In this document: in pieces, positions 2,242 through 6,314 of the stretch
Layout of the letters: each line of letters begins with the position of its first letter
Numbering within the stretch: the first letter of the stretch is position 1
Source of the DNA: Oscillospiraceae bacterium
GTDB lineage: Bacteria > Bacillota > Clostridia > Oscillospirales > Oscillospiraceae
NCBI GenBank assembly: GCA_017458025.1
Contig: JAFTGG010000093.1
Location: 1-10,361 of the forward strand
Direction: 5' to 3'
Length of the DNA stretch: 10,361 nt
The notes under the pieces: model-generated
Told to the model about the DNA's origin: nothing
Database searches by the model: none
What the model saw: the letters and a program-made list of their open reading frames with translations, nothing else
Program-made: the position numbers and the translations under genes

Positions 2242-3135
2242 ATGGAAGTTGTGAGGACGATCATGGAGGGCGTGCTGCGCTATCTTGGGACGATCGCGCT
2301 GACGGATTGGCTCGACATCGCGCTCCTGGCATATCTGCTGTATCGCGCGCTGAAGCTGGTCGGGCGCTCCCGCGCGGCGAGTCTCGGCAGAGGCGTGCTG
2401 GTGTTTCTGCTGGCTTTGGCGCTGTCCGACGTGCTGCGGCTCAACAGCATCAATTGGATATTGCGCAACATCGTGACCGTGGGCGCATTGGCGCTGATCG
2501 TGCTGTTCCAGCCGGAGATCCGCCGTTTACTTGAGCAGGTCGGCTCCAGCCGGCTCAGCTCGTTCAACCCGTTCGCGCGCGTGCAGCAGACCAGCGTGAT
2601 CGAGACCGCCATCGCGCAGACGGTGGACGCCTGCGCCGAGATGTCCGAGGCGCACACGGGCATGCTGGTCGTCTTTGAGCGAAACCTCAAGCTGGACGAT
2701 ATTGCCCGCACCGGCACCATTGTGGACGCGCAGGTGTCGAGCCAGCTTTTAAAGAATATCTTTTTCGTCAAGGCTGCGATGCACGACGGCGCGGTCATTA
2801 TCCGCGACGGGCGTTTGCTCGCGGGCGGCTGTATTCTGCCGCTGTCGCACAATGCGAACATCAGCCGCGACCTCGGTACGCGCCATCGCGCCGGCATCGG
2901 CATGAGCGAAAATTCGGATGCGGTGGTCGTCATCGTCTCGGAGGAAACGGGCGCGATCTCGGTCGCGATCCGCGGCATGCTCAAGCGGCATCTGACGGCG
3001 CAGACGCTTGAAAAGCTCCTGACCAACGAGCTGCTTCCGGCGCCCGAGGAACAGGAAACGCAGGACAAGTTCCGGCTGCGCCTGCCGTGGCAGCGCAAGG
3101 CGGGAAAGGAGGCGGACGGCGATGCAGATGAGTAA
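2242..3135 (+). CDS. cdaA: CdaA, membrane diadenylate cyclase
   Basis: A 297-residue protein that makes cyclic di-AMP from two ATP. The N-terminus has three hydrophobic segments (about residues 13-36, 50-64 and 74-90), followed by a cytoplasmic DAC domain from about residue 110 to 260. The two catalytic signatures are present: DGA at 182-184 (in AMHDGAVII) and GTRHRA at 212-217. ETGAISVAIRG at 235-245 is also typical. A charged, Glu/Asp-rich tail follows residue 266. The ATG at 2242 has AGGGAG (2229-2234) 7 bp upstream. It is first in the long operon and overlaps cdaR by 14 bp, the conserved cdaA-cdaR pairing. Cyclic di-AMP controls potassium and osmolyte transport and cell-wall homeostasis in Firmicutes. 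glmM, the usual third gene, is not next to it here. Confidence 0.97.
   Translation: MEVVRTIMEGVLRYLGTIALTDWLDIALLAYLLYRALKLVGRSRAASLGRGVLVFLLALALSDVLRLNSINWILRNIVTVGALALIVLFQPEIRRLLEQVGSSRLSSFNPFARVQQTSVIETAIAQTVDACAEMSEAHTGMLVVFERNLKLDDIARTGTIVDAQVSSQLLKNIFFVKAAMHDGAVIIRDGRLLAGGCILPLSHNANISRDLGTRHRAGIGMSENSDAVVVIVSEETGAISVAIRGMLKRHLTAQTLEKLLTNELLPAPEEQETQDKFRLRLPWQRKAGKEADGDADE
3105..3112 (+). promoter_or_regulatory. Ribosome binding site of cdaR, inside the end of cdaA
   Basis: AAAGGAGG ends 9 bp before the ATG at 3122 and 15 bp before the alternative in-frame ATG at 3128. It therefore favours 3122, which overlaps the cdaA coding end by 14 bp. Confidence 0.75.
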
Positions 3136-4381
3136 CGGCCGCAAAGCACTGTACATCATCATATCGGTCCTGATCGCGTTCGTGCTCTGGTTCTATGTGA
3201 ACAACACATCGAGCGTCGTTTTGACGATCAACGATATCCCCGTGGAGTTCCTCAACAGCGAAACGGCGCTGGCCAACAAGGGGCTTGTGCTGCTCAGCGG
3301 CGGCGACGAGACGGTGGATCTGGAGCTCACGATGCCGCGCAATCTGGTCTATGGATTCGACACCGACCGCGTACGGCTCATTGCGGATCTGAACTCCATC
3401 AACACGACGGGCACACAGTCGCTGACATATAACATCGCCGGAGTCGATATGAGCCAGGTTACGGTGAAATCGCCGACGATCCGCACGATTTCGGTGCGCG
3501 TCGGCGAGCTGTTCCGCAAGACCGACGTCGAGATCCGCGTCAATCTGATCGGCAACGTGGCGGACGGCTATGTCGCGGGCCGCGTCCAGCTTCTGCCCGA
3601 GACGCTGGAGGTCTGGGGCCAGCAGAGCGACGTGATGAGCGTCAGCTACGCGCAAGTGACGCTGAACATTGAAAACGCGCGCTCGACCATCGTTGAAATG
3701 CTGGAATACAAGCTTTACGACTATGACGACGAACTGATCGAGGGCAGCAGCATCCACGCCGCAAGCGATACGGTGCAGGTGACGATGCCGGTCATCTCTG
3801 CGACGGATATCCCGCTGGTCGTCAACTTCATTGAGGAGCCCGGCGTCCGCAGGGAGAGCTTCGACTACTCGCTTGACCGTTCCTCCGTGACGCTCTCCGG
3901 CGATGCGAATCAGATCGCTGCGCTCGGCGAGCTGGTGCTCGGCGAGGTGGTGCTTTCCGAGATCGAGGAGGAGCAGACCATCACCTATGATATTCCCGTA
4001 CCTGAAGGCCTGAGCAATCTCAGCGGCGTATCGACCGCTACGCTGACCATTGCCAACCGCGACGTCACGATGCGCAACGTGACCGTGACAAGCTTCGACT
4101 ATGAAAATTTCGGCGAAGAAGATCGCACGGTCGAGGTCGTGACCTCGTCGCTGAACGTGACCTTGCGCGGCGCGCGGGAGACGCTGGAGGCAATCGCGGC
4201 GGATCAGGTGCGGGCGGTAGCCGACCTCTCCGGCGTGGCAAATGCCAGCGGTACCTATACGGTACCCGCCAACATTCGCATCGAGGGCGGCCCCGACGTC
4301 GGAACGACGCAGGAGTATCAGCTGACGGTGCGCATCGGATTGCCGGAGCAAACGGAAGAAACAGAGGAAACGCAGGAATGA
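3122..4381 (+). CDS. cdaR: CdaR, YbbR-domain regulator of CdaA
   Basis: A 419-residue protein with one N-terminal membrane anchor (residues about 9-26, ending LWFYVNN) and a long extracytoplasmic part made of about four YbbR-like beta-rich repeats, roughly 30-127, 135-222, 228-312 and 318-405. Repeat features include 'V-x-L-x-x-x-x-P-V-E-F' near residue 33 and recurrent 'D-L/x-V-x-V-x-L/V-x-G' strands such as LNVTLRG at 344-350. The C-terminus ends in a short Glu/Thr-rich tail. CdaR binds CdaA in the membrane and modulates cyclic di-AMP output; how it senses is not known. The start at 3122 is preferred on ribosome-site spacing. Its stop overlaps the next start as ATGA (4378-4381), linking it tightly to an RseC-family gene rather than to glmM. 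Confidence 0.93.
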   Translation: MQMSNGRKALYIIISVLIAFVLWFYVNNTSSVVLTINDIPVEFLNSETALANKGLVLLSGGDETVDLELTMPRNLVYGFDTDRVRLIADLNSINTTGTQSLTYNIAGVDMSQVTVKSPTIRTISVRVGELFRKTDVEIRVNLIGNVADGYVAGRVQLLPETLEVWGQQSDVMSVSYAQVTLNIENARSTIVEMLEYKLYDYDDELIEGSSIHAASDTVQVTMPVISATDIPLVVNFIEEPGVRRESFDYSLDRSSVTLSGDANQIAALGELVLGEVVLSEIEEEQTITYDIPVPEGLSNLSGVSTATLTIANRDVTMRNVTVTSFDYENFGEEDRTVEVVTSSLNVTLRGARETLEAIAADQVRAVADLSGVANASGTYTVPANIRIEGGPDVGTTQEYQLTVRIGLPEQTEETEETQE

Positions 4382-4785
4382 AGCAGATCGCGACAGTGGA
4401 CAAGATACTCGCGAACGGGCGCGCGGAGATCGTCGTCGCGCGACTGTCCGCCTGCGCGCATGACTGCCATGACTGCGCCGGCTGCGGCGGCACGCCGACG
4501 CCCATTCACGCAGTGGTGGACAATCCCATTGGCGCGCAGGAAGGGCAGAAGGTCGTGGTCGAGAGCAGCACGCGCCAGATGTTCGGCGTGTTGGCGCTGG
4601 TCTACATGGTGCCGGTCGCGCTGTTTTTCATCGCGTATTTCGCGACGGCTTCTTTTGGAAACGACGCGCTCTCGGCGGGCGTCTCGATCCTCGCGTTTTT
4701 CCTCGGCGTCGTGCCGGCGATCCGCTACGACCGCCGTATCAAGCGCAGCGGCGGCATGACGTTCACCATCGTGCGGGCGTTTTAG
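4378..4785 (+). CDS. SoxR-reducing system RseC family membrane protein
   Basis: A 135-residue protein of the RseC/MucC type (PF04246). Residues 1-65 form a small cytoplasmic domain with four cysteines spaced C-x3-C-x2-C-x2-C (26, 30, 33, 36) in SACAHDCHDCAGCGG, which probably bind a metal or Fe-S cluster. Two membrane helices follow (about 69-91 and 96-115), then a basic stretch, RYDRRIKR. In Proteobacteria RseC is linked to SoxR reduction with the Rsx/Rnf complex and to SigE control; in Clostridia relatives occur with or without rnf genes and their role is poorly defined. No rnf or rsx genes are seen here. It starts on an ATGA overlap with cdaR, and its TAG lies 6 bp before the next gene. 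Confidence 0.88.
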   Translation: MKQIATVDKILANGRAEIVVARLSACAHDCHDCAGCGGTPTPIHAVVDNPIGAQEGQKVVVESSTRQMFGVLALVYMVPVALFFIAYFATASFGNDALSAGVSILAFFLGVVPAIRYDRRIKRSGGMTFTIVRAF

Positions 4786-4791
4786 CGCGCG

Positions 4792-5691
4792 GTGTTCGGC
4801 TATATCCGTCCCGCCGCGCCGAGGCTTTCCGGCGCGGAGAACGAGCGTTTCCGCAGCGCCTACTGCGGCCTGTGCCACACGCTGGGCAGACGCTACGGCT
4901 TTTTCGCGCGGTTTCTGCTGAACTTTGATTTCACGTTCCTCGCGATCCTGCTTTCGCTCGGCGAGTCGGGAACGCGCGCCTGCCGGCGCTGTGCCGCGCA
5001 CCCGTGTAAGGGCTGCGGCGCGATGGCCGCGTCGCCGGCGCTGGACGCCGCGGCGGACCGCAGCGTCGTGCTGGCGTGGTGGCAGCTGCGGGACCACATT
5101 GCCGACCACGGCTTCCTTGCGGGACTCAAATACCGTCTCGCGGCGCTGTTCGTGCGTCGGGCGTACCGCAAGGCGCGCGCGATGGTTCCGGAGTTCGATG
5201 CGGCGGTGCAGCGGCACCTGCGCGAGCTGGGCGCGCGCGAGGCAGAGCATTGCGCCTCGCTCGATGCGGCGGCGGAGCCGTTCGCGGCGCTGCTTGCGGA
5301 GATTGCAACGGTGGAGCCGGACGCGACGAAGCGCCGCGTGCTCGGGCAACTTTTCTACCATCTCGGCCGCTGGATCTACCTGATCGACGCGGCGGACGAT
5401 TTCAAGCAGGACGCGAAAAGCGGCAACTACAATCCGCTGCGCTACCGTTACGGCGTCGACGGGAACGAGCTTTCCGAAGACGTCAAGCGCGCGCTGGGCG
5501 AGACGCTGGACGCGTCGATCCGTCAGATGGCGGGCGCGTACGCGCTGCTGGACGCCGGCGAATGGTCGCCGGTACTCGACAGCATTTTTTACGACAGTCT
5601 CTACGGCATCGGCAAGGCGGTTTTGGAGGGCAGTTACCGCAAAGGTGCGCGCTTCAGGCGCTATCGAGATACAAGTGAGGAACCGATATGA
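4792..5691 (+). CDS. DUF5685 family protein (function unknown)
   Basis: A 299-residue protein starting at GTG 4792; no ribosome site is obvious, but the MFGYIRP N-terminus matches the DUF5685 family start, and the preceding TAG is 6 bp away, so reinitiation is likely. Cysteines cluster early: YCGLC (25, 28), CRRC (64, 67) and HPCKGC (72, 75), suggesting a metal or Fe-S site. The rest is predicted mainly helical and Ala/Leu/Arg-rich. Two acidic motifs stand out: [12 protein letters not shown] (Asp101, Asp105) and [11 protein letters not shown] followed by KSGNYNP (Asp199, 202, 203, 207). These resemble the paired D-x3-D motifs of squalene/phytoene synthases (inference). The stop overlaps the J-domain gene as ATGA (5688-5691). 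I do not know its function; family assignment is from the N-terminus, Cys pattern and the neighbouring J-domain gene. Confidence 0.85.
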
Positions 5692-6314
5692 GCGATCCCT
5701 ACAAAGTATTGAATATTTCGCCCACGGCGTCTGACGACGAGGTCAAACACGCCTACCGCGAGCTGGCGCGGAAGTATCACCCCGACAACTACCACGACAA
5801 TCCGCTCGCCGACCTCGCGCAGGAGAAGATGAAGGAGATCAACGAGGCGTACGAGCAGATCCAGCGGCAGCGTAAGGGCGGCTACGCCGCCTCGTCGCAG
5901 CGAAGCGGCGGCTACAACGGCTCGTACGGCAATTCGTACAGCAGCTCGACGAGCGGCGATCCGCTGCTCCAGCGCGTCCGGCTCGCCATCAACAGCGGCG
6001 ATATCACGCAGGCGGAGCGGCTGCTGAACGAGGCAAGCGATCGCGGCGCGGAGTGGAGCTTCCTCATGGGCATTGTCTGTTCCCGCCGCGGCTGGATGGA
6101 CGACGCGCGGCAGTATCTCGAGACCGCCTGCCGCATGGAGCCGAACAACGAGGAGTATCGCCAGGCGCTGCAGATGTTCACCAGCAGCGGCGGCTACCGT
6201 CCCGCGGGCTTCCGCGGCTTTGGCACGATGACTTACGGCAACGACGCGTGCATGCGGCTGTGCGCCGCGTGGTCGTGCTGTATGCTGAGCGGCGGAAGAT
6301 GCTTCTTCTGCTGA
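5688..6314 (+). CDS. J-domain protein with helical-repeat region and Cys-rich tail
   Basis: A 208-residue protein. Residues 3-60 form a J domain with the HPD signature at 31-33 ([11 protein letters not shown]) and the [11 protein letters not shown] helix, so it should stimulate a DnaK-type Hsp70. A Gly/Ser/Tyr-rich linker (about 64-90) leads to a helical stretch (about 93-165) that looks like TPR-type repeats ([15 protein letters not shown] and a second copy around [20 protein letters not shown]). The C-terminus is Cys-rich: Cys188, 192, 197, 198, 205 and 208, the last being the final residue. It lacks the DnaJ zinc-finger and client-binding domains, so it is a specialised co-chaperone, not housekeeping DnaJ. 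The ATGA overlap with the DUF5685 gene suggests that the two work together; the Cys tail may bind metal. Confidence 0.9.

Follow-up and report, generated by a model that had tools for sequence, protein, structure and literature searches.

What does the product of a DUF5685 gene do, and why is it so often followed by a gene for a protein with a cysteine-rich tail? The window, the whole stretch of 10,361 nucleotides analysed here, carries one such gene (Table 1). Residues 1–270 of its product form a near full-length DUF5685 domain (PF18937, E 2.4e-68), scoring 230.9 bits against the curated Pfam cut-off of 26.7 bits, and the MFGY start is conserved at residue 1 of family members in a 22-sequence alignment. 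DUF5685 is widespread in Clostridia-like bacteria, with detections in 111 of the 196 genomes sampled from the class and 45 of the 398 from the phylum; a PF18937 search also scored over the cut-off in the control genome of Thermotoga maritima, outside Clostridia. The accessible text of PMC9403866 names the family among the domains listed for C. difficile proteins, and the accessible open-access literature describes no function for DUF5685 or PF18937, preprints and most subscription papers falling outside the scope of that search.

The surroundings of the gene in the window are mixed. Directly 5′ of it (2242–4785) lie cdaA (diadenylate cyclase), a gene that has no NCBIfam match and that we take to be YbbR-like, and an RseC/MucC-like gene carrying the Cys-rich stretch CAHDCHDCAGCGG. 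ispF (130–612), of the MEP isoprenoid pathway, lies some 4 kb upstream of the DUF5685 gene on its strand, and at 751–2120 a small 83-aa gene with no NCBIfam match adjoins a cysteine desulfurase family gene.

Table 1. Features of the DUF5685 gene and its partner in the window, and polyprenyl synthase genes at four other DUF5685 loci (locus coordinates).
Feature	Position	Strand	Details and basis
DUF5685 gene	4792..5691	+	299 aa, GTG start; class I isoprenoid-synthase fold predicted
Y24-C25-G-L-C28, first helix	4861..4875	+	C25 and C28 invariant in 284/284 members having the region
C67, third invariant Cys	4990..4992	+	Sits between the model's two short strands; conservation counts
First Asp motif, residues 94–106, D101-x3-D105	5071..5109	+	C-terminal end of helix 82–105
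E150, near-invariant acidic residue	5239..5241	+	End of helix 133–151; E in 286/288
Second Asp motif and loop, residues 197–215, D199-x3-D203-x3-D207...GNYNP	5380..5436	+	Sequence, conservation, model, profile alignment
Partner gene	5688..6314	+	4-nt overlap with DUF5685 gene; J domain, TPR-like middle, Cys-rich tail
Cys-rich C-terminal tail of partner	6249..6311	+	ORF translation, neighbour survey
Polyprenyl synthase relative, L197	5565-6512
Polyprenyl synthase relative, L199	1757-2902
Polyprenyl synthase relative, L202	1795-2820
Polyprenyl synthase relative, L200	695-1726		Gene in two ORFs

An earlier note on this DNA had read two aspartate motifs as signs of a class I terpenoid-synthase-like fold, broadly resembling squalene/phytoene synthases. 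The fold is supported by a high-confidence predicted model of the window protein, by structure matches and by the conserved motifs. In the model the protein has the all-helical isoprenoid-synthase fold, the first Asp motif stands at a helix end and the second forms an i, i+4, i+8 triad, as in the class I superfamily. The structure-match lists are one-sided for this fold: the best Foldseek matches include trans-polyprenyl diphosphate synthases (4jxy, 9imq and the E. coli octaprenyl diphosphate synthase) and MoeN5, with the squalene/phytoene-type enzyme CrtM at rank 49. Identity to the structures in the best 50 matches is 9–16%, and among the matches listed none has E below 1e-3 and the rmsd runs from 4.6 to 11; squalene/phytoene synthases are not among the matches listed by VIA. 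It is highly improbable that the motif resemblance arose by chance on an unrelated fold. Sequence-only comparisons are indeed weak, and PDB searches with sequence gave no solved relative (0 matches for the window protein; 7 for the profile, namely designed repeats, prefoldins and a globin, none of them useful), but the confidence of the model, the one-sided lists and the conservation of the Asp motifs led us to reject chance resemblance. Judged from the model, DUF5685 almost certainly has a class I isoprenoid-synthase fold.

Conservation was read from a 288-member alignment made by pooling 137 family members, 15 search matches and 140 loci (292 sequences) and removing identical sequences, so that all members are non-identical and near-duplicates may remain. 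D101 is aspartate in all 288 members and D105 in 287, and the second motif keeps D199 in 288, D203 in 287 and D207 in 285. The four aspartates named in the earlier note (101, 105, 203 and 207) are thus each retained in at least 285 of the 288, and both motifs are where it had put them in the translation, the KSGNYNP that follows the second occupying residues 209–215 rather than ending at 214. Its D203-x3-D207 pair stands as part of a longer arrangement: D199 had been overlooked, and the true layout is a D199-x3-D203-x3-D207 triad. Y196 is invariant (288/288), N214 is N in 286 of the 288, and E150, also overlooked, is near-invariant. The added Cys-rich N-terminal section does contain cysteines, better described as an invariant C25-x2-C28...C67 set (C in 284, 284 and 283 of the 288 members); the exceptions are L165, L187, L188 and L213, where the region is missing, and one member with X at position 67. 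Departures at the aspartates are confined to four members: P0190 and P0201 (D207N), L165 (D105N) and L188 (D203A, D207K). A further sequence outside the 288, L021, has N at position 105 in the separate 22-sequence alignment. Across these sequences the Asp motifs are conserved more than chance would allow.

Which known family does this site resemble? Like DUF5685, squalene/phytoene synthases (PF00494; CrtM) have D-x3-D and N/D-x3-D-x3-D preceded by G at −7. In an alignment of 11 of the 12 squalene/phytoene synthase (SQS) matches, D-x3-D and N-x3-D-x3-D are invariant and a G lies seven residues before the N. Comparison by hhalign (P 0.0034) places G192, D199, D203 and D207 of DUF5685 exactly on this G and the N/D/D triad, the spacing being that of N149/D153/D157, and a forced extension puts D101/D105 on the SQS DxxxD, in low-confidence columns. 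As controls, each of two alignments was column-shuffled 60 times, three alignments were reversed, and 22 neighbour families were compared, among them c21, a polyprenyl synthase family in its own right. With these included, SQS comes out narrowly ahead: it scores 28.9, the shuffled maximum being 21.3 and the P of the reversed SQS alignment 0.055, and natural decoys come close (family c16 with score 28.2 and P 0.017; family c3 with the best decoy P, 0.012). Because this lead is small, the profile comparison is treated as support, not as proof of homology. The likeness to squalene/phytoene synthases is therefore kept; membership of that family is rejected, since the window protein has no PF00494 match in Pfam at E up to 10, and PF00494 is absent among the 25 of 69 families listed for the 137 DUF5685 members. 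Nor is a match to PF00348, the trans-polyprenyl diphosphate synthases, or to DUF2600 (PF10776) listed for the window protein at E up to 10. For polyprenyl synthases against DUF5685, hhalign gives P 0.42; compared with the trans-polyprenyl enzymes, DUF5685 has D-x3-D, D-x3-D-x3-D followed by GxYNP, and an added Cys trio.

The second part of the question concerns the partner. In the window its J domain spans residues 3–62 and has the HPD motif. The neighbourhood survey covered 141 loci: the window, the best 80 of 583 matches (its closest named relatives) and 60 chosen from diverse genomes. The loci are not independent, 80 of the 141 being closest named relatives of the window protein, and gene order comes from a simple ORF picker, which overlooks some genes, gives others a wrong start and may choose antisense ORFs. 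In 116 of the 136 loci with a +1 gene, that gene encodes a J-domain/TPR protein on the strand of DUF5685, most commonly at a spacing of −4 nt; this holds for 76 of 77 in the closest-relatives set, window included, and for 40 of 59 diverse loci. At least five cysteines occur in the last 40 residues of 113 of these 116 J partners as against 9 of 899 other picked neighbours; two of the remaining partners have four and one has none. The chain ends in CC in 60 of the 116 and has two or more cysteines among its last five residues in 95. The J-domain/TPR protein with a Cys-rich C-terminal tail as the usual neighbour of DUF5685 is what is new here.

For the 20 loci lacking a J gene at +1, the Cys-richest same-strand ORFs were read by eye, and 11 of these loci have a tail protein with 7–11 cysteines. 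The picker had skipped the J-tail ORF in L180, L191 and L038, J lies two genes on in L185, and in L187, L196, L198, L203, L204 and L205 no J domain was detected in the tail protein. In L197 and its relatives the Cys tail is fused to DUF5685 itself. This fusion occurs in P0239–P0251, 13 of the 15 search matches, including that of Anoxybacter fermentans, and the fused tail is nearly invariant among them while whole-protein identity drops to 38%. The other nine loci (L156, L165, L186, L188, L199–L202 and L213) have no convincing Cys tail nearby by eye, only ORFs with 4–6 cysteines; the L156 genome has a Cys tail elsewhere.

Co-occurrence was also followed genome-wide, using a DNA pattern that stands for the tail variant CCECMGGD, which is absent from the window's own genome. 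The pattern is found in 12 of the 398 phylum genomes, all 12 of which have DUF5685, and in 29 of the 196 class genomes, 28 of which have it; the two samples overlap (G337 is in both). A reversed control pattern gave 0 in every genome row of both samples, and the Fisher values for co-occurrence are 1e-12 and 4e-7, ignoring relatedness. At L207 the chosen ORF lacks a tail, yet the pattern lies close to DUF5685 in that genome. The exception is G487, 65% complete, in which the pattern is present and DUF5685 went undetected. There (L252, G487:C185, 4366–5914) a J-Cys-tail gene is followed by a membrane gene with no DUF5685 beside them, and the preceding gene encodes a different protein of 152 aa. 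In G530 the contig bearing a tail gene with no J domain and a membrane gene is not the one that bears DUF5685. In G508, G552 and G573, of the same genus, pattern and DUF5685 share a contig at a distance of over 13 kb, so the two are not always neighbours. Taken with the neighbourhood counts, it is likely that DUF5685 is functionally coupled to the tail protein.

Other companions are less regular. Of the 60 diverse loci, 28 carry a small membrane protein (cluster c7), 26 of them at +2 and the other 2 at +1, and 8 carry a zinc-ribbon membrane protein (c14). The three c7-like proteins tested have no Pfam family; a profile alignment (hhalign P 7e-4) points to a possible relationship between c7 and c24, the DUF2232-like proteins found at divergent loci. 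Hsp70 genes lie within four genes of DUF5685 in five loci, on the same strand in L163, L164 and L211 and on the opposite strand in L199 and L202, which suggests that the J protein has a chaperone partner of its own.

The main alternative to an enzyme acting on its neighbour is that DUF5685 makes a small-molecule isoprenoid, a terpene or modified prenyl chain as YtpB or MoeN5 do, with the J-TPR tail protein as its chaperone or membrane tether and the tail not a substrate. Known class I enzymes act mostly on small molecules, and MoeN5 is among the best fold matches. YtpB (BalTS; DUF2600, class IB), a tetraprenyl-beta-curcumene synthase, shares with DUF5685 the register of the second motif, including the loop G and N: aligned from 19 of 30 loci with DUF2600, it runs in register through D..D..D...G-x2-N (hhalign P 0.026), at a score of 23.8 that is barely above its own shuffled maximum of 23.6. 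Pfam finds DUF2600 in 4 of the 137 DUF5685 members (best E 7.8e-4, weak for 137 scans); FTCD_C matches more of them, 6 of 137 with a best E of 9.5e-4, and is taken as a presumed helical chance match. Unlike DUF5685, YtpB has DYLDNLxD as its first motif and no cysteine in its invariant columns (C72 and C123 are near-invariant). The accessible text of PMC7839719 gives the BalTS motifs as DYLDNLxD and DY(F,L,W)IDxxED.

Genes for polyprenyl synthases also speak for a small-molecule product: they lie within four genes of DUF5685 in 4 of the 141 loci, all divergent (L197, L199, L200 and L202), and none is found within that distance in the divergent loci L198 and L201. These synthases keep DDxxD intact and, where that part is present, have NDxNN in place of the second motif; they are possibly a separate peptide- or lipid-modifying group, and for those of L199 and L202 the best NCBIfam model, below its cut-off, is the family 2 encapsulin cargo polyprenyl transferase. 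Against a small-molecule product, the tail goes with DUF5685 in loci where no J domain was detected, and one clade has the two as a fusion. Neither SQS_PSY nor DUF2600 gave a match in the window genome (89% complete), which thus shows neither kind of triterpene route; it does have a polyprenyl synthase, which could supply a prenyl donor. This alternative has a real chance of being right, short of an even one.

A second alternative makes DUF5685 a former isoprenoid synthase that does metal or redox work, its aspartates being structural and the Cys trio and Cys tail binding Zn, Fe-S or Cu and passing on metal or electrons. C25, C28 and C67 are invariant where present, and metal binding looks feasible for acidic Cys-rich tails such as CADCCCECMGGDLISCC and for the fused tail, which is strictly conserved. 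Five aspartates with E150 and N214 are nevertheless kept in at least 285 of the 288 members, unlike a degenerate site, and the Cys spacing of the J tails differs between loci by eye; we consider this reading unlikely.

We therefore return to the reading in which the site is active, the predicted fold and intact motifs arguing for ionisation of a prenyl diphosphate. DUF5685 is likely to carry out prenyl-diphosphate chemistry, and it is fairly probable that it does so as an enzyme coupled to the tail protein. From the computed features (the fold, as a prediction, the motifs and the tail coupling) we infer metal binding, donor, catalysis and acceptor as follows. DUF5685 would be a Mg2+-dependent enzyme in which D101/D105 and D199/D203/D207 hold metal ions and an allylic prenyl diphosphate is bound and ionised, the resulting allyl cation being captured by an acceptor. 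It would form one module with the Cys-tail protein (usually J domain, TPR and tail) and often the small membrane protein, and the tail protein, as a member of this module, would serve it as client, acceptor or membrane docking partner. The tail is favoured as acceptor or docking site, being the commonest companion, present without a detected J domain and fused in one clade; counting against such a role, the tail is missing from the surroundings of several divergent loci, and acidic tails might bind metal instead. The most economical scheme has a tail cysteine as acceptor, that is, S-prenylation, which we regard as possible and rather doubtful. The Cys trio may then be a zinc site that activates the thiolate, a suggestion drawn from known zinc enzymes. 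Equally tentative is the fuller proposal of a bacterial protein S-prenyltransferase built on a class I terpenoid-synthase fold, which would add a prenyl chain to C-terminal tail cysteines, in most cases those of a J-domain chaperone.

The cysteine-string J proteins (CSP) of eukaryotes have, by description, the same parts as the DUF5685 partner, a J domain and a C-terminal Cys-rich stretch. A bacterial J domain with a cysteine string was not found in the accessible open-access literature. The window partner has no CYSTM match in Pfam at E up to 10, short Cys-rich tails scoring poorly; CYSTM denotes Cys-rich tail-anchored proteins in the accessible text of PMC10217909. Precedent for a polypeptide acceptor comes from ComQ/PalQ, isoprenoid-synthase-superfamily enzymes that prenylate a polypeptide partner, ComQ doing so without a second Asp motif (accessible text of PMC10853753). 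Compared by description only, DUF5685 differs from these tryptophan-targeting enzymes in having both Asp motifs and a Cys-tail partner. According to the accessible text of a 2026 review (PMC13290415), tryptophan is the residue modified by every trans-IDS-like peptide prenyltransferase characterised so far, so a Cys-directed enzyme of class I fold would be new. The function proposed here for DUF5685 is not described in the accessible literature on bacterial protein prenylation, including PMC8669142, or on S-prenylation in connection with isoprenoid synthases.

Once DUF5685 is placed among the isoprenoid synthases, its site looking intact and its partner being chaperone-like with a Cys tail, the family has a function that can be tested directly. 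What was not expected is the Cys-tail J-protein module; DUF5685 itself would be categorically new only if cysteine prenylation were demonstrated. If the proposal is true, an S-prenylated J tail would be the bacterial counterpart of the prenylated or cysteine-string J proteins of eukaryotes, and the lipid tagging of cysteines in bacteria becomes an idea that can be tested.
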